This document shows positions 9,150 through 54,115 of a stretch of 64,000 nt of DNA, one piece after another. Made by a program: the position numbers and the translations under genes. Location of the stretch: positions 1 to 64,000 of the forward strand of contig CADBYI010000004.1 in the NCBI GenBank assembly GCA_902798825.1, given 5' to 3'. Each line of letters begins with the position of its first letter. Position 1 is the stretch's first letter. The notes under the pieces were generated by a model that was not told the DNA's origin, made no database searches, and saw only the letters and a list, made by a program, of their open reading frames with translations. This DNA is from an uncultured Eubacteriales bacterium (GTDB lineage: Bacteria; Bacillota; Clostridia; Christensenellales; CAG-138).

Positions 9150-9848
9150 TTATCCGCCCAAATAGGCCTTCTGCACCTCCGGGCTCCGGCTCAGCTCCTC
9201 GCCGGTGCCATAGAGCACGATGCGCCCGGTCTCCATGACCGCGGCCCGGTTGCAGATCTTCAGGGCCAGGGCCGCATTTTGCTCCACCAGCAGGATGGTG
9301 GTCCCGTTTTCGTTGAGGCGGCGGATGATCTCGAAGATCTCCGACACCAGCAGGGGCGACAGGCCCATGGACGGCTCGTCCAGCAGCATCAGCTTCGGTC
9401 GGCTCATGAGCGCCCGGCCCATGGCCAGCATCTGCTGCTCGCCCCCGGACAGGGTGCCGGCGGTCTGCTTTTTGCGCTCCTTCAGCCGGGGAAAATAGGA
9501 GAACACCTTCTCCATGTCCCCGGAAAAGTCGTCCTTGCGAAGGTAGGCCCCCATCTCCAGATTCTCCAGCACCGTCAGCCCCGGGAACACCCGCCGCCCC
9601 TCGGGGGACTGGGAGATGCCCATGGCCACCCGGCTTTGGGGCGAGGTCCTGGTGATATCCTTGTCCAGGAATTTCACGGTGCCGCTCTGGGCCTTTTTGA
9701 GGCCGGACAAGGTCAGCAGCGTGGTGGTCTTGCCCGCGCCGTTGGCGCCGATGAGGGTCATGATCTCCCCCTCCTCCACGGAGAAGGACACGTCCTTCAG
9801 GGCACGGATGTTGTCGTAGTATACGTTCAGGCCCGAAACTTCAAGCAT
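9150..9848 (-). CDS. livF: Branched-chain amino acid ABC transporter ATPase LivF
   Basis: 232-aa ATPase with Walker A GANGAGKT (34-41), Q-loop, signature LSGGEQQ, Walker B LMLLDEPSMGL and the switch His in a LVEQN context typical of LivF. Its start overlaps livG by 8 nt. With LivG it forms the nucleotide-binding pair energising LivHM uptake of Leu/Ile/Val. Last gene of the operon, followed by a hairpin terminator. Confidence 0.96.
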   Translation of the reverse strand: MLEVSGLNVYYDNIRALKDVSFSVEEGEIMTLIGANGAGKTTTLLTLSGLKKAQSGTVKFLDKDITRTSPQSRVAMGISQSPEGRRVFPGLTVLENLEMGAYLRKDDFSGDMEKVFSYFPRLKERKKQTAGTLSGGEQQMLAMGRALMSRPKLMLLDEPSMGLSPLLVSEIFEIIRRLNENGTTILLVEQNAALALKICNRAAVMETGRIVLYGTGEELSRSPEVQKAYLGG

Positions 9849-10704
9849 GGCTTGCCTCCTCCCCCAGGTACGCCTCGATGACCACCGGATTGCTCTGGAT
9901 CTCCTTGGGCGTGCCCTTGGCGATGATCTTCCCGTAGTTCAGCACGGCGATGCCCTCGCAGATGCCCATGACCAGGTTCATATCGTGCTCGATGAGCATG
10001 ATGGCGATGTTGATGGCGATGTTGAACCGGTCCCGGAGCATGCGGATGTTGTCCATGAGCTCGTGGGTCTCGGAGGGATTCATGCCCGCCGCCGGCTCGT
10101 CGAGGAGCAGCAGCTTCGGCTCCGACGCCAACGCCCGGACGATCTCCAGCCGGCGCTGGTCCCCGTAGGGCAGATTCCCCGCCAGGGCGTCCGCCTTGTC
10201 GGTCAGGTTGAACAGATCCAAAAGCTCCAGCGCCCGCACGTGCTGCCGCCGCTCGGTCCGCCACCAGCCGGGGAGCCGGAACATATCGGTGAACACCCCG
10301 TCGGTGTACCCGTGGCTCATGCCCACCTTCACGTTGTCCTCCACGGTCATGCCGGAGAAGAGGCGGATGTTCTGGAAGGTCCGGGCGATGCCTAGGCGGT
10401 TGAGCTCGTGCATGGATTTGCCCCGGGTGTCCTGGCCGTTCAGCAGGATCTTGCCCTGGGTGGGCTTATACACGTTGGTCAGCAAATTGAACACCGTGGT
10501 CTTGCCTGCGCCGTTGGGGCCGATGAGCCCCGCGATCTCCGTCTTGCCGATGAGCAGGGTGAAATCGTCCACCGCCCGAAGGCCGCCGAAATCCACGCAC
10601 AGGTGCCGGATGTCCAATATGGGGGGGCTGCCCGCGTCCCGCTCCGGGATGATGCCCAGACCGTCCAGGGGGACCATGTTGCTGTTTACCGGTTTCTTAG
10701 CCAC
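9841..10704 (-). CDS. livG: Branched-chain amino acid ABC transporter ATPase LivG
   Basis: About 287-aa ATPase with Walker A GPNGAGKTT, signature LPYGDQRRLEIVRAL and Walker B LLLLDEPAAGMNPSET, all LivG hallmarks, plus a terminal LIEHDMNLVM block. The GTG at 10704 was chosen because AGGTGAGG lies just upstream; GTG 10713 and ATG 10677 are alternatives. It overlaps the end of livM. The first 30 residues precede the ABC core and are not conserved in the family, so the start could be later. Confidence 0.95.
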   Translation of the reverse strand: MAKKPVNSNMVPLDGLGIIPERDAGSPPILDIRHLCVDFGGLRAVDDFTLLIGKTEIAGLIGPNGAGKTTVFNLLTNVYKPTQGKILLNGQDTRGKSMHELNRLGIARTFQNIRLFSGMTVEDNVKVGMSHGYTDGVFTDMFRLPGWWRTERRQHVRALELLDLFNLTDKADALAGNLPYGDQRRLEIVRALASEPKLLLLDEPAAGMNPSETHELMDNIRMLRDRFNIAINIAIMLIEHDMNLVMGICEGIAVLNYGKIIAKGTPKEIQSNPVVIEAYLGEEASHA

Positions 10705-11719
10705 GATCCTCACCTGCCTTTTGGGGCTTCTTCACGAAGAGCCGCCCGTTGATCAGTTTTTCCAATATTCTGGACAGGGAGAAGTCGTACCGGCCCAGGA
10801 GCCCCGAGGGCTTGAATATCATCACCACGATGAGCAGCAGCGCGTAGATCACCATGCGGTATTTGCTGAAGCTCTGCAGCGCCAGGGGCAGCGCCGTCAA
10901 AATGGCGGCCGCGATGATGGACCCGGCCATGGAGCCGAGACCCCCCAACACCACCATGACCAGGATATTCACGCTGGTCATAAAGGTGAAGTTGCCCGGG
11001 GTCAGGATGCCCGTGTACCCGGCGTACAGGGCACCGGCCACCCCCGCGAAGAAGGCGGAGACCGTAAAGGCCAGGACCTTGTAGAAGGTGGTGTTGACGC
11101 CGCTGGCTTCCGCGGCGATCTCGTTCTCCCGGATGGCCAGGATGGCCCGGCCGTGGCGGGATTTCATCAGGGTGTGGATCAAAACGCAGGAAACGATGAC
11201 CGTCGCATACACCACCAGGAAGGTGGAATGCTTGGGGATGCTCATGAGGCCCGGGGTGCCGCCGGTGATGGACGGCAGGTTGATGATGAGCACCCGGATG
11301 ATCTCCCCGAAGCCCAGGGTGATGATGGCCAGATAGTCGCCCCGCAGCCGCAGGGCAGGGATGCCGATGGCGATGCCGAAGACGGCCGCCGCCAGTCCGC
11401 CCAGCAGCAGGCCCAGGAGCATGGCGCCCGTGTTCTTGGGCATGGCCTTCCAGAGGATGGCCGCCGCATAGCCGCCCACGGCCATGAACCCGGCGTGCCC
11501 CAGGGGCAGCTGGCCCAGATACCCGGTGGCCACGTTCAGCGACACGGCCAGCAGGGCGTAGATGCCGATCTGCAATATGACGGCTTTCTGGGCCCGGTTC
11601 ACCGCGCCGGAGCTGATGAGATGGTTCCCCACCACCAGCAGCGCCACCAGCAAAAGGGTGTTGATCAGATACTTAAGGTAGACAGGGATCTGTCGATAGC
11701 CGCGCATGGTCTTGTCCAT
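10697..11719 (-). CDS. livM: Branched-chain amino acid ABC transporter permease LivM
   Basis: 340-aa polytopic permease with the family motif LPLGHAGFMAVGGYAAA after the second membrane segment, GIPALRLRGDYLAIITLGFGE, and C-terminal GLGSMAGSIIAAAIL. The start ATG at 11719 is preceded by GAGGTGG; the GTG at 11725 is possible. It begins 8 nt after the livH stop and overlaps livG at its end, a tightly coupled operon. Confidence 0.95.
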   Translation of the reverse strand: MDKTMRGYRQIPVYLKYLINTLLLVALLVVGNHLISSGAVNRAQKAVILQIGIYALLAVSLNVATGYLGQLPLGHAGFMAVGGYAAAILWKAMPKNTGAMLLGLLLGGLAAAVFGIAIGIPALRLRGDYLAIITLGFGEIIRVLIINLPSITGGTPGLMSIPKHSTFLVVYATVIVSCVLIHTLMKSRHGRAILAIRENEIAAEASGVNTTFYKVLAFTVSAFFAGVAGALYAGYTGILTPGNFTFMTSVNILVMVVLGGLGSMAGSIIAAAILTALPLALQSFSKYRMVIYALLLIVVMIFKPSGLLGRYDFSLSRILEKLINGRLFVKKPQKAGEDRG

Positions 11720-11726
11720 AGCCACC

Positions 11727-12605
11727 TCACACCTTCTCCGACACGCCCTTGCCCAAAAGGCCCGAGGGCTTGACCAGCAGCACCAGAATGAGGATGGCGA
11801 ACACCACCGCGTCCGTCCAGGCGGAGAAGCCCAGCGCGGTCACCAGCACCTCCGCAAAGCCGATGGCAAAGCCGCCCACCACCGCGCCGGGAATGGAGCC
11901 GATGCCCCCCAGCACCGCGGCCACGAAGGCCTTGAGGCCCAGCAGGGACCCCATGGTGGGGTTGGCCACGGAGTAACGGCAGCAGTAGAGCACGGAGCCC
12001 ACGCCCGCCAGGGCCGAGCCGATGGCGAAGGTGATGGAGATCACCGTGTTGATGTCGATGCCCATGAGCTGGGCGGCCCCGGTATCCTCGGAAACGGCCC
12101 GCATGGCCTTGCCCATACGGGTCTTCTGGATCAAAAGATGGAGCCCCACCATAGACCCTACGGAGACCAATATGGTCACCATGGTGGACAGGCTGATGTT
12201 CAACCCCCCCAGGCTGATGGCCTTGGCGGGGATGATGGCGGTGCTGGGATAGGACCGGGTGTTGGCCGTGAAGAAAAGCTGCACCAGGTTCTGCAAAAGC
12301 AACGACACGCCGATGGCCGTGATGAGCAGGGAAATCCTGGGCGCGGACCGAAGGGGCCGGTAGGCCACCTTTTCGATGAGCACGCTGATCATCACGCAGC
12401 CCAAAATGGTCACAACCACCGCCAGCGCGGGGTGGACCCCCGCGCCGATGGTGAGCAAAGCGATATAGGCACCGATCATGATCACGTCCCCGTGGGCAAA
12501 GTTCAGCAGGCGGATGATGCCATACACCATGCTGTACCCCAGGGCCACCAGGGCATAGATGCTGCCCAGCTGCAGACCGTTGATGCATTGGGATAGAAAG
12601 AGCAT
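11727..12605 (-). CDS. livH: Branched-chain amino acid ABC transporter permease LivH
   Basis: 292-aa permease. LivH motifs: QLGSIYALVALGYSMVYGI at residues 11-29, LLNFAHGDVIMIGAY, and the C-terminal GGIGSIPGAVVGGFAIG block. It partners LivM in the membrane. A 225-nt gap with two structured repeats separates it from the binding-protein gene upstream; binding-protein messages are commonly more abundant than permease messages, and such hairpins could set that ratio (inference). Confidence 0.95.
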   Translation of the reverse strand: MLFLSQCINGLQLGSIYALVALGYSMVYGIIRLLNFAHGDVIMIGAYIALLTIGAGVHPALAVVVTILGCVMISVLIEKVAYRPLRSAPRISLLITAIGVSLLLQNLVQLFFTANTRSYPSTAIIPAKAISLGGLNISLSTMVTILVSVGSMVGLHLLIQKTRMGKAMRAVSEDTGAAQLMGIDINTVISITFAIGSALAGVGSVLYCCRYSVANPTMGSLLGLKAFVAAVLGGIGSIPGAVVGGFAIGFAEVLVTALGFSAWTDAVVFAILILVLLVKPSGLLGKGVSEKV

Positions 12606-12830: not shown

Positions 12831-14015
12831 TCAGTAGTTGCCCCAGAACTTGGCGGCACCGTTCTCGAAGGTGATGATGGCGGCGCTCTTCTCGGGGTTG
12901 TTGTACTCGTTATAGGTCACATGGCCGGTGACGCAGTCCATGTCGGTGGCCTTCATGGCGGCGATGATGGCCTCGGTGTAGGCGTCGGAGCCGGCCTTGG
13001 CGCCGGAAGCCTCGGCCTTCTCCACGGCGGCGGCCATGATCATGGCGGCGTCATAGCCCTGGGCGGCGAACATGTTGGGGGTGGCGCCGTACTTGGCCTG
13101 ATAGTTGGCCACGAAGGTCTGGACCGCCTCACGGGTGTCCTCGATGGAGTAGCCGGAGCAGTAGTAGGAGCCCTCCAGCAGGGCGGGGTCGGTGACCACG
13201 TCCAGCACGGAATCCCAGCCGTCAGAGCCCAGCATGGTGGACTTCACGCCGGCGGCATAGGCCTGCTGGGCCACCAGGGCCACCACGGAGTAGTAGTCGG
13301 GGATGAACAGCACGTCGGGGTTCTTGGCGGCAATGTTGGTGAGCTGGGACTGGAAGTCCACGGCGCCGTCTGCGTAGCTCTCCACAGCCAGCACCTCAAG
13401 GCCCTGGGCCTGGGCGGTCTCCTGGAAGGATTTGGCGCAGCCCGCGGAGTAGTCGGAGCCCACGTTGTACAGGACCGCGGCGGTGGAGGCGTTCAGCTGC
13501 TCCTTGGCGAAGGCGGCCATCTTGTTGCCCTGGAAGGGATCGATGAAGCAGGAGCGGAACATGTTCTCATACACCGCAGCCACGGTGCCGTCGTCGTTCA
13601 TCTGGCAGGTGACGGCTGCGGCGGTGGCGGAGGCGGTGATCATGGGGGTGCCCTCCTCCTGGCTCTCGGTCACCACGGCGATGGTGGGCGCGGTGGTCAC
13701 GTCGCCGATGATGGCGACCACTTCCTCATCCAGCAGGTAGTTATAGCCGGTAACGGCCTTCACGGGGTCGCCCTCTTCATCGTAGACGACCAGCTCCACC
13801 TGCTTGCCGTTGATGCCGCCGTTGGCATTCAGCTCCTCAAAGAACATGGTAACGCCGTTGTTGACCGCGTTGCCGTATTCGGCCACGCCGCCGGTCAGGG
13901 GCGCCAGCACGCCGATCTTGATGGTGTCGGAAGCAGCCGCGGCGACGGCTACGAAGCTCATGAGCATGACGACCGCCATGGCGACGGCGATGACTTTGGA
14001 TACGAAGCGTTTCAT
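12831..14015 (-). CDS. livJ: Branched-chain amino acid-binding protein LivJ/K type
   Basis: 394-aa family-6 binding protein. The signal peptide at 1-28 ends VAAAAS with no lipobox Cys. Mature start IKIGVLAPLTGGVAEYG is the family signature; later blocks GVKSTMLGSDGWDS and FAAQGYDAAMIMA fit the two-lobed fold. The start at 14015 follows AAGGAGG; the longer reading from 14078 runs through the attenuator terminator and is rejected. First structural gene of the operon, controlled by the leader-peptide attenuator upstream. Like the sugar-binding protein it lacks a lipid anchor. Exact ligand (Leu/Ile/Val versus another amide or amino acid) is supported mainly by the leader codons. Confidence 0.93.
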   Translation of the reverse strand: MKRFVSKVIAVAMAVVMLMSFVAVAAAASDTIKIGVLAPLTGGVAEYGNAVNNGVTMFFEELNANGGINGKQVELVVYDEEGDPVKAVTGYNYLLDEEVVAIIGDVTTAPTIAVVTESQEEGTPMITASATAAAVTCQMNDDGTVAAVYENMFRSCFIDPFQGNKMAAFAKEQLNASTAAVLYNVGSDYSAGCAKSFQETAQAQGLEVLAVESYADGAVDFQSQLTNIAAKNPDVLFIPDYYSVVALVAQQAYAAGVKSTMLGSDGWDSVLDVVTDPALLEGSYYCSGYSIEDTREAVQTFVANYQAKYGATPNMFAAQGYDAAMIMAAAVEKAEASGAKAGSDAYTEAIIAAMKATDMDCVTGHVTYNEYNNPEKSAAIITFENGAAKFWGNY

Positions 14016-14060
14016 TGTGTTTTCCTCCTTGGGTTTTTTCACATTCTTGGCATATAAAAA

Positions 14061-14087
14061 GGCGGTCCCGATCTTCACGGGGCCGCC
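14061..14087 (-). terminator. Attenuator terminator of the liv operon
   Basis: GGCGGCCCCG/CGGGACCGCC stem with one mismatch and a 7-nt loop, followed on the minus strand by TTTTT (14056-14060). It lies 22 nt after the leader-peptide stop and 41 nt before the livJ start. A competing pairing of its 5' arm (14078-14088) with 14124-14134 could form an antiterminator. Confidence 0.85.
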
Positions 14088-14108
14088 GTTGCTTTCTTCA
14101 CGCGCGCC

Positions 14109-14189
14109 TTACGCGTGCACGAACGGCAGCCCCCTGCGCAGCAGCAGGACGCTGATTCGTACGATAACGATGGCGTGGCTGTTTCTCAC
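14109..14189 (-). CDS. Leader peptide for attenuation of the liv operon
   Basis: A 26-codon open frame starting GTG at 14189 behind AAAGGAG and ending TAA. Eleven of 26 residues are Ile, Val or Leu: IVIV at 7-10, I12, VLLL at 14-17, L21 and V24. The codon run overlaps a hairpin CCTGC/GCAGG (14133-14148) and precedes the terminator, as in ilv/leu attenuators of enteric bacteria. Expected behaviour: ribosomes stalling for charged Ile/Val/Leu tRNA release segment 2 to pair with the terminator 5' arm and let transcription reach livJHMGF. Too short for ordinary gene calling. The reading is inferred from sequence and architecture. Confidence 0.85.
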   Translation of the reverse strand: MRNSHAIVIVRISVLLLRRGLPFVHA

Positions 14190-14240
14190 GGGCTCCGTTC
14201 TCCTTTCCTCAAAGATTATATACAATATTGATTGGTTCGC

Positions 14241-14269
14241 ATTCTACCACCGTTCCTTGCTCCCGTCAA
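14241..14269 (-). promoter_or_regulatory. Promoter of the liv operon
   Basis: On the minus strand TTGACG (14264-14269), 17-nt spacer, TAGAAT (14241-14246). Start of transcription is expected near 14234, about 45 nt before the leader-peptide GTG. Confidence 0.75.
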
Positions 14270-14407
14270 TAGTTTTTTTGCAATTTTCCATGCATTTGCG
14301 CAAATTTTCTCTTGCAGCGCGGCTGTAAAGGATAAAAAGTCTCTTTAAAAGAGAATTATTGGCCTCAAGGGGGCGGTGGGTCCCTGTACGCGCAAAAAAG
14401 ATTGAGG

Positions 14408-14436
14408 TTGTTTCTTTCGTGGGGACGTGGTATCAT
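14408..14436 (+). promoter_or_regulatory. Promoter of holA, probably leaderless
   Basis: TTGTTT (14408-14413), 17-nt spacer, TATCAT (14431-14436). Only 6 nt separate the -10 box from the GTG chosen for holA, and no Shine-Dalgarno site is present. Confidence 0.5.
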
Positions 14437-26888: not shown

Positions 26889-28502
26889 TTACGCCTGCTT
26901 CCGGTTCAGGATGGCCCGCAGCAGGAACAGGGCGCCGATCATCAGCGCCAGGGCCACGGGCAGGGCGATGAACGCGTTGGGCACGAACCCGGCGAACAGG
27001 TACGCCACGGCGCTCACCGCCGCCGCGGTCATGGCGTAGGGGAGCTGGGTGGACACGTGGGTCACATGGTCGCACTGGGCGCCGGCGCTGGCCATGATGG
27101 TGGTATCGGAGATGGGCGAGCAGTGGTCGCCGCAGACCGCCCCGGCCATGCAGGCGGACACGCACACCACGCCCAGGGGGTCCGTCAGCGGGAACACGCC
27201 CAGGGTGATGGGGATGAGGATGCCGAAGGTGCCCCAGCTGGTACCGGTGGCGAAGGAGAGGCCGCAGGCGATCAGGAACACGATGGCGGGCAGGAAGGAC
27301 TTGAAGCCCCCGGCGGAGCTCTTGACCAGGGCCTCCACGAACTGCTTGGCCCCCAGGCTGTCGGTCATGGCCTTCAAGCTCCAGGCGAAGGTGAGGATCA
27401 GGATGGCGGGGACCATGGACTTGAACCCCTCCGGGATGCTGGCGGCAATCTCCTTGAAGGGGATCACCCGGCGGATGAGGTAGTAGATCACCGTGAGGAC
27501 CAGCGCCACCGCGGAGCCCAGCATGAGGCCCACGGAGGCGTCGGCGTCGGAGAAGGCGTCCACGAACCCGGCCCCCTCAAAGAACCCGCCGGAGTAGATC
27601 ATGCCGGTGACGCAGCAGGCGATCAGCGCCACGATGGGCAGCACCAGGTCGACGACCCGGCCCTTGGGGTTGGCGTTCTCCCCGGCGGCGTCGGCCATGG
27701 CCTTCACCCCGGAGAAGATGTCCCCCTTCTCCCGGGCGTTGCGCTCGTGCCGCTCCATGGGCCCGTAATCGAGATTGGTCAGGGCCAGGAACACCATCAT
27801 GGCGATGGTCAGCAGGGCGTAGAAGTTGAAGGGGATGGCCCGGATGAAGAGGTACAGGCCGTTGCCCTCCTCCACGTAGGAGCTGACCGCCGCCGCCCAG
27901 GAGGAGACCGGCGCGATGATGCACACCGGGGCCGCCGTGGCGTCGATGAGGTAAGCGAGCTTCGCCCGGCTGATCCGGCTCTTGTCGGACACGGGCCGCA
28001 TAACGGAGCCCACGGTGAGGCAGTTGAAATAGTCGTCCACGAAGATGAGCACGCCCAGGGCGATGGTGGCGAGCTGGGCCCCGGCCCTGGTTTTGATGTG
28101 CTGCGCCGCCCAGCGGCCGAAGGCCGCCGAACCGCCCGCCTTGTTCATGAGGACCACCAGGATGCCCAGGATGACCAGGAAGACCAGGATGCCCACGTTG
28201 TAGCTGTCCGCCAGGGACGCGCCGATGCCGTCGTTGAACACGTGGGTCAGCGTCCCCTCGAAGCTGAAGTTGGAATAGAGCAGGCCGCCCGCCACGATGC
28301 CCACGAACAGGGAGGTGTAGACCTCCTTGGTGATCAAAGCAAGGGCGATGGCGATGACGGCCGGCAGCAGGGACCATATGGTTTGATAGAAGCGGGACGG
28401 GGCCTCGGCCTCCCCCTCGCCCTCGGCGAAGGCGAGGCCGGCGACCAGCAGAAGGATCAGCAGGATGGACAGAAGGGACAGGACTCTTTTTGCGTTTCTC
28501 AT
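26889..28502 (-). CDS. NhaC-family transporter, candidate lysine transporter
   Basis: 537 aa with a cleavable or anchoring N-terminal segment (residues 1-25, LAFAEG) and about 11 membrane helices. NhaC hallmarks: VDDYFNCLTVGSVMRP, FATGTSWGTFGILIPI and CGDHCSPISDTTIMASAGA. NhaC members exchange Na+ and H+ or carry organic anions and amino acids. The lysine riboswitch directly upstream points to lysine transport; NhaC-superfamily proteins under L-box control have been proposed as lysine transporters (LysW) in comparative work. Start 28502 follows AAAGGAG. Direction of transport: repression by lysine would fit an importer. Confidence 0.88.
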   Translation of the reverse strand: MRNAKRVLSLLSILLILLLVAGLAFAEGEGEAEAPSRFYQTIWSLLPAVIAIALALITKEVYTSLFVGIVAGGLLYSNFSFEGTLTHVFNDGIGASLADSYNVGILVFLVILGILVVLMNKAGGSAAFGRWAAQHIKTRAGAQLATIALGVLIFVDDYFNCLTVGSVMRPVSDKSRISRAKLAYLIDATAAPVCIIAPVSSWAAAVSSYVEEGNGLYLFIRAIPFNFYALLTIAMMVFLALTNLDYGPMERHERNAREKGDIFSGVKAMADAAGENANPKGRVVDLVLPIVALIACCVTGMIYSGGFFEGAGFVDAFSDADASVGLMLGSAVALVLTVIYYLIRRVIPFKEIAASIPEGFKSMVPAILILTFAWSLKAMTDSLGAKQFVEALVKSSAGGFKSFLPAIVFLIACGLSFATGTSWGTFGILIPITLGVFPLTDPLGVVCVSACMAGAVCGDHCSPISDTTIMASAGAQCDHVTHVSTQLPYAMTAAAVSAVAYLFAGFVPNAFIALPVALALMIGALFLLRAILNRKQA

Positions 28503-53859: not shown

Positions 53860-54115
53860 AATCGAAACGAAGGCTGTGAAGGAAAGAGTAGGCGGCGCAA
53901 GGTCTCAAGAGAGCACCCGGCCGGTGGAAGGGTGCGGCGAACGCCACCGAAGTACATTCCGGAGCCGCTGCCCTGAACGCAGAGTAGGGGCAGACGGGTG
54001 CGCCCGATACAGCGTCCAAGGAGAGGCGGGTCCCTGCGGGGGATCGTCTGAATTGAGGTGGTACCACGGCTATTGTCGTCCTCTGTTCCCGAAAGGGAGC
54101 GGAGGACGTTTTTTT
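53860..54115 (+). ncRNA. T-box leader of tyrS
   Basis: T-box AGGTGGTACCACGG at 54056-54069; terminator CGTCCTC...GAGGACG at 54077-54108 followed by seven T residues; AGAGTA-type boxes near 53887 and 53983; specifier context GAAG-TAC with TAC (Tyr) at 53953-53955. The GAAG before the specifier is the same as in the thrS T-box. Confidence 0.92.

Follow-up and report, generated by a model that had tools for sequence, protein, structure and literature searches.

A leader-peptide attenuator predicted to control a LIV/HAAT-type ABC importer operon in an uncultured gut-type Clostridia bacterium

In Escherichia coli, the LIV transport genes (liv) are under the control of leucine supply, an effect ascribed to Lrp and to rho-dependent effects, and we know of no leader peptide rich in isoleucine, leucine, and valine (ILV) in this system. 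For biosynthesis of branched-chain amino acids (BCAA) in Firmicutes, the Rli60 element (rli60) of Listeria monocytogenes has been experimentally shown to be a ribosome-mediated attenuator of the ilv-leu genes (PMC5864092), and the leucine-rich attenuator peptide of Staphylococcus aureus ilvD is a supported BCAA leader (PMC5794164). Candidate leaders have also been reported before actinobacterial ilvB (PMC1262725). Passages of the survey by Naville and Gautheret (2010; PMC2965389) report that premature terminators are common before ABC transporter genes and that hisS is preceded by leader peptides in bacilli; these passages mention no leader peptide for a BCAA or LIV transporter.

The leader region described here lies on the minus strand of a 64,000-nucleotide stretch of DNA (the window), between livJ and a divergent plus-strand gene starting at about 14360-14420. 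The best matches of the five minus-strand genes located 3' of the leader follow the order LivJ, H, M, G, F. They encode a substrate-binding protein (livJ, 12831-14015; Pfam PF13458, E = 5e-58), two permeases (livH, 11727-12605, and livM, 10697-11725; top NCBIfam matches LivH, E = 3.5e-68, and LivM, E = 9.3e-66), and two ATPases (livG, 9841-10713, and livF, 9150-9848; top NCBIfam matches LivG, E = 2.5e-85, with PF12399, and LivF, E = 6.3e-78). The closest solved structures to LivJ are BCAA-binding proteins (best PDB match 4gnr, E = 1.7e-42). Because all five genes score below the NCBIfam equivalog cut-offs, we designate the product as a LIV/HAAT-type ABC importer, the substrate assignment being putative rather than certified.

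Upstream from livJ, the minus strand contains the components of an attenuator in close succession. A consensus scan located a sigma-70-type promoter (TTGACG-17 nt-TAGAAT; TG precedes the second hexamer) at 14269-14241. The Shine-Dalgarno sequence AAAGGAG (14206-14200) precedes a frame of 26 codons and a TAA stop codon (14189-14109) encoding VRNSHAIVIVRISVLLLRRGLPFVHA, which starts with GTG in the window genome, with ATG in most relatives, and contains 11 Ile/Val/Leu residues after the start. Codons 7 to 17 (IVIVRISVLLL; 14171-14139) form the regulatory run. A 1-2 (preemptor) hairpin has its core, CCTGC/GCAGG, at 14148-14133 and reaches out to 14162-14117 when the whole region is folded. The antiterminator 5' arm, GGGGCTGCCGTTC, is located within codons 19 to 23 (14133-14121) and forms 13 pairs with a 3' arm (14092-14079) that overlaps the 5' arm of the terminator; between the two arms, a hairpin over the leader stop codon (14116-14100) was observed in the fold of the window genome. 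The intrinsic terminator (14087-14056) consists of a stem-loop at 14087-14061 (-16.5 kcal/mol) followed by T5 at 14060-14056. The preliminary description had correctly reported the promoter, the frame with its 11 Ile/Val/Leu residues behind AAAGGAG, the core of the 1-2 hairpin (14133-14148), and a terminator with U5 before livJ; the alternative pairing that it had placed at 14124-14134 with 14078-14088 exists but is slightly longer, as given above.

The segment containing the antiterminator folds at -40 kcal/mol, and none of 200 shuffled sequences was equally stable. Omission of the leader end from the fold, as would occur under a ribosome located at the stop codon, led to formation of the terminator. 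The leader region was shuffled 4000 times (dinucleotide-type shuffles), and none of the shuffled sequences contained a frame preceded by a Shine-Dalgarno sequence with at least nine ILV residues in 12 codons. BLAST detected no further copy of the liv leader in the window genome, and no second strong copy was found by BLAST or with a covariance model.

An ortholog of livJ (73-100% identity) is present in 8 of 12 genomes from the genus. The search for the same leader before livJ in relatives, called for in the preliminary description, detected it in all eight, and the four genomes without the ortholog also lack the leader. In the alignment of the eight genomes, TTGACG and the TAG-AT core of the promoter are invariant, the Shine-Dalgarno sequence of the leader is kept as AAAGGAG or GAAAGGAG in 8/8, and the segments TTGACGGG, GGGGGCTGCCG, GAAAGCAACGGCGGC, and CGCCTTTTTATAT are near-invariant or invariant. 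The pairs of the 1-2 hairpin are kept in the eight genomes. Antiterminator positions form a standard pair in 99% of the cells, versus 32-62% if the partner is slid by one to three columns. As the antiterminator hardly varies, covariation was weak: no two-sided change was present in this element among the eight genomes, and a single pair of the terminator displayed a compensatory change. Covariation was therefore dropped as a decisive proof of the structures, the variation being too small. Within the codon run, 52 changes kept Ile, Val, or Leu versus 46.8 expected by random placement (P = 5e-5), in a test that takes the lineages as independent and to which RNA structure may add constraint.

Folding of the eight leaders, the other check proposed in the preliminary description, gave terminators of about -15 to -22 kcal/mol and antiterminator duplexes of -24 to -28 kcal/mol, the two folds being mutually exclusive. 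In order to model the effect of ribosome position, the RNA left free by the ribosome was folded codon by codon, assuming a footprint of 13 nt past the first base of the P site. In 8/8 leaders, the modeled probability of the antiterminator was about 0.8-1.0 at the final codons of the run, with the A site up to and including the last Leu codon, and 0 with the A site one codon further, just past codon 17 in the window genome. The run thus ends where a stalled ribosome would start to mask the antiterminator arm. In the ribosome-free model, the antiterminator rather than the terminator was obtained in 6 of the 8 genomes at the kinetic stage; the 1-2 hairpin can only tentatively be assigned a role in termination of the untranslated leader. 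At equilibrium, following synthesis of the 3' arm, the terminator was favored despite a stalled ribosome in G001, G007, G010, and G011. Co-transcriptional kinetics must therefore decide the outcome.

An RNA that senses tRNA (T-box) or a metabolite (riboswitch), accompanied by a hydrophobic frame arising by chance would also account for a terminator/antiterminator pair, and the window genome harbors both types of element, before a tyrS-like gene and as a lysine riboswitch. We consider this explanation highly improbable since no Rfam family matches the leader site even at E = 10, except for one meaningless match on the plus strand, and since the frame is under a constraint preserving I, L, and V and the end of the codon run coincides with the switch point. 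The T-box model (RF00230, stem I and antiterminator) did not match the leader in a search that does detect the tyrS T-box of the window.

Our preferred interpretation is that a ribosome-mediated transcription attenuator controls livJHMGF, which is very probable in view of the parts, conservation, mutually exclusive pairing, and geometry established by computation. A frame with regulatory codons and an intrinsic terminator are present in the sequence, and, in the model, an antiterminator incompatible with the terminator is masked when a ribosome occupies the stop codon and left free when it stalls in the run. Transcription would begin near position 14235, and a ribosome would translate the leader of 26 codons. 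Shortage of charged Leu-, Ile-, or Val-tRNA would stall the ribosome within codons 7 to 17 and leave the GGGGCTGCCG segment free to pair with the terminator 5' arm; formation of this antiterminator would allow RNA polymerase to continue into livJHMGF. With an ample supply, the ribosome would reach the stop codon and cover the same segment, the terminator would form, and transcription would end about 40 nt before livJ. BCAA scarcity should thus switch on the importer through slow translation of the leader frame. We infer translation of the leader, stalling at the codons of the run, and the ensuing read-through; as a further step in this reasoning, the strongest effect would be expected from stalls at Ile12, Val14, and Leu15-17. 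The attenuator logic of the preliminary description agrees with the eight congeneric leaders, the mutually exclusive folds, and the switch point at the codon run.

Beyond the genus, the family was scanned for ILV-rich frames preceded by a Shine-Dalgarno sequence and ending 15-28 nt before a strong GC-rich terminator. This arrangement is present at 26 of the 40 LivJ loci, in nine genera, the terminators being located 28-69 nt before livJ. Among control genes (81 from the same DNA, a few of them livJ itself), the scan detected 1 in about 75, an unrelated case. In loci with 13-kb flanks (L048-L051), the downstream operon is livJHMGF. Terminators are common in 5' regions, so that an ordinary terminator with a spurious short frame, livJ being controlled by its promoter only, has to be weighed; 0/4000 shuffles, conservation in 8/8 genomes, and 26/40 loci versus 1 in about 75 controls make it extremely improbable.

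Outside the genus, the ILV-rich frames are longer: 51-78 codons within the family and 93-100 codons in L097 and L051. The encoded peptides display no sequence similarity to the frame of the window genus. Their first block is poor in ILV residues and contains 26% Ala, 11% Ser, 8% Cys, and 8% Phe; the second block contains 59% Leu/Ile/Val and is followed by a polar tail that encodes the antiterminator arm. In most long leaders, pairing of the terminator 5' arm with upstream RNA is predicted to persist throughout the ILV block and to drop over the tail. The ILV codons are often non-preferred (ATT 65% versus 14% and GTA 43% versus 11% in livJ of the same loci). These longer leaders may in addition signal the supply of Ala, Ser, Cys, and Phe. 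The long frames (for example those of L048, L049, L014, and L020) are enriched in the motif TTAGC, with 17 occurrences versus 7.4 expected from codon shuffling.

The ILV-rich blocks of about 35 residues in the long leaders could form membrane helices, and similarity extends over part of the block in genus g21, as might be expected if the frame encoded a functional small hydrophobic protein of the operon, the terminator merely tuning the level of livJ. However, the frame of the window genus comprises just 26 codons, with an Arg inside the run, and composition and geometry are kept between genera that share no peptide similarity. In addition, the frame and the terminator are 15-28 nt apart, the antiterminator arm lies in the last codons of the frame, and the regulatory codons of the long leaders are often non-preferred (ATT, GTA). 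A small-protein function is for these reasons very unlikely, and we retain attenuation as the probable role of the frame.

Among the LivJ hits scanned beyond the family, the leader was found only at L097 (family f31), L051 (family unknown), and possibly in G044. A wide distribution across the order and class was considered and rejected, the device being rare outside the family among these hits. The preliminary description had regarded homologous loci keeping the operon without the Ile/Val/Leu codon run as contrary evidence: the run is kept in 8/8 congeners, but L054 harbors an intact livJHMGF operon and lacks a leader with an ILV run. Judging from these loci, the device is lineage-restricted, because distant loci lack the run, L054 despite its whole operon. 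In G044, which belongs to another family of the order, the region 250-190 nt before livJ (L027) contains a short ILV leader, MKKFTAKNNRIIILINLLK, and a weak terminator; it is possibly an independent case. A second livJ paralogue of genus g11 (L067, L073, L074, and L078) is preceded by a different conserved hairpin, of the TGGCGTGTGATTATT...AATAGTCATAGCCA type, 31-39 nt before the gene.

Neither ilvD nor ilvC was detected in the window genome (a 93% complete MAG) by a search that was positive in 14/14 control genomes, and none of the 12 congeneric genomes, the window genome included, gave an ilvD hit. CodY was absent from the six genomes tested and was not detected in the window genome. Within the limits set by the 93% completeness of the MAG, the organism seems to be auxotrophic for BCAA and to lack CodY. 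Since these genomes seem unable to make Val and Ile, and lack CodY, import is what remains to be regulated. A strict tie of the liv leader to the loss of ilvD was rejected, ilvD being present in 6 of 26 leader-bearing genomes (g21 and g11).

Other regulatory elements are present in the same genome. A leader rich in Trp codons (MAQGSAARSFRFSGWWFSRPFVMPGIGS) and a terminator precede a trpB-like gene (G000:C4:109906-110098, plus strand; L117:1500-1780), indicating that leader peptides are used for more than one operon; most congeners harbor a Trp-codon leader before a trpB-like gene (L109-L116, L118), and its Shine-Dalgarno context resembles that of the liv leader. The window also contains a T-box leader before the tyrS-like gene (53867-54086, plus strand) and, upstream of an NhaC-like antiporter gene (26889-28502, minus strand), a lysine riboswitch (28773-28599, minus strand). 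Genomes of the genus contain many copies of a dispersed repeat of about 40-57 bp with an inverted repeat (around TTTTCTTTTTCGGTTCCTTTTTC; L042:1719-1760).

From leader codons, testable predictions can be derived regarding the amino acids that uncultured Clostridia of gut and rumen sense, and perhaps those that they import; annotation of an ABC transporter as a HAAT-family member cannot supply such predictions. The preliminary description went too far in taking these codons as direct evidence for the substrates: they indicate what regulates the operon, not directly what the transporter binds. If the multi-amino-acid reading of the long leaders were true, the leader would be a genetic read-out of transporter specificity. 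It is conceivable, though rather doubtful, that ribosome-stalling leaders are the family's main control of amino acid import and that the long two-block leaders read the whole substrate range of the importer.

Compared with described systems, the locus shares with Rli60 its occurrence in Firmicutes, a leader peptide with BCAA codons, and a ribosome-mediated choice between terminator and antiterminator; Rli60 differs by its control of biosynthesis genes, with CodY on top, and by its 13-codon leader (PMC5864092), whereas the window combines an ABC importer with undetected CodY, ilvD, and ilvC. The S. aureus system likewise has a BCAA leader peptide and a terminator before a BCAA operon of a Firmicute, but this is a biosynthesis operon, and its antiterminator pairs with the poly-U tail, leaving the terminator stem intact (PMC5794164). 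In contrast to S. aureus ilvD (PMC5794164), the antiterminator of the window competes for the 5' arm of the terminator. Enterobacterial leu, ilv, trp, and his leaders and actinobacterial ilvB leaders (PMC1262725) have the same layout of promoter, peptide with regulatory codons, antiterminator, and terminator; they precede biosynthesis genes, are unrelated in sequence, and are far shorter than the 51-100-codon leaders of the relatives of the window genus. The preliminary description had regarded T-boxes or CodY as the usual amino acid control in Firmicutes and ribosome-stalling attenuators on a LIV transporter as unfamiliar. A search of open-access text indeed yielded no description of a LIV ABC transporter with a leader-peptide attenuator, although, contrary to its view of the phylum, ilv-leu attenuators of Firmicutes are known (PMC5864092, PMC5794164). 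The mechanism is thus classical ribosome-mediated attenuation, as known for ilv-leu biosynthesis operons, including those of Firmicutes. The LIV ABC importer as a target, the BCAA-auxotroph setting, and the long two-block leaders appear to be undescribed in the open-access papers searched. If confirmed, the two-block leaders of 51-100 codons in related genera would be unusual attenuators, and the locus of the window would place classical leader-peptide attenuation on a transporter operon rather than on a biosynthesis operon.
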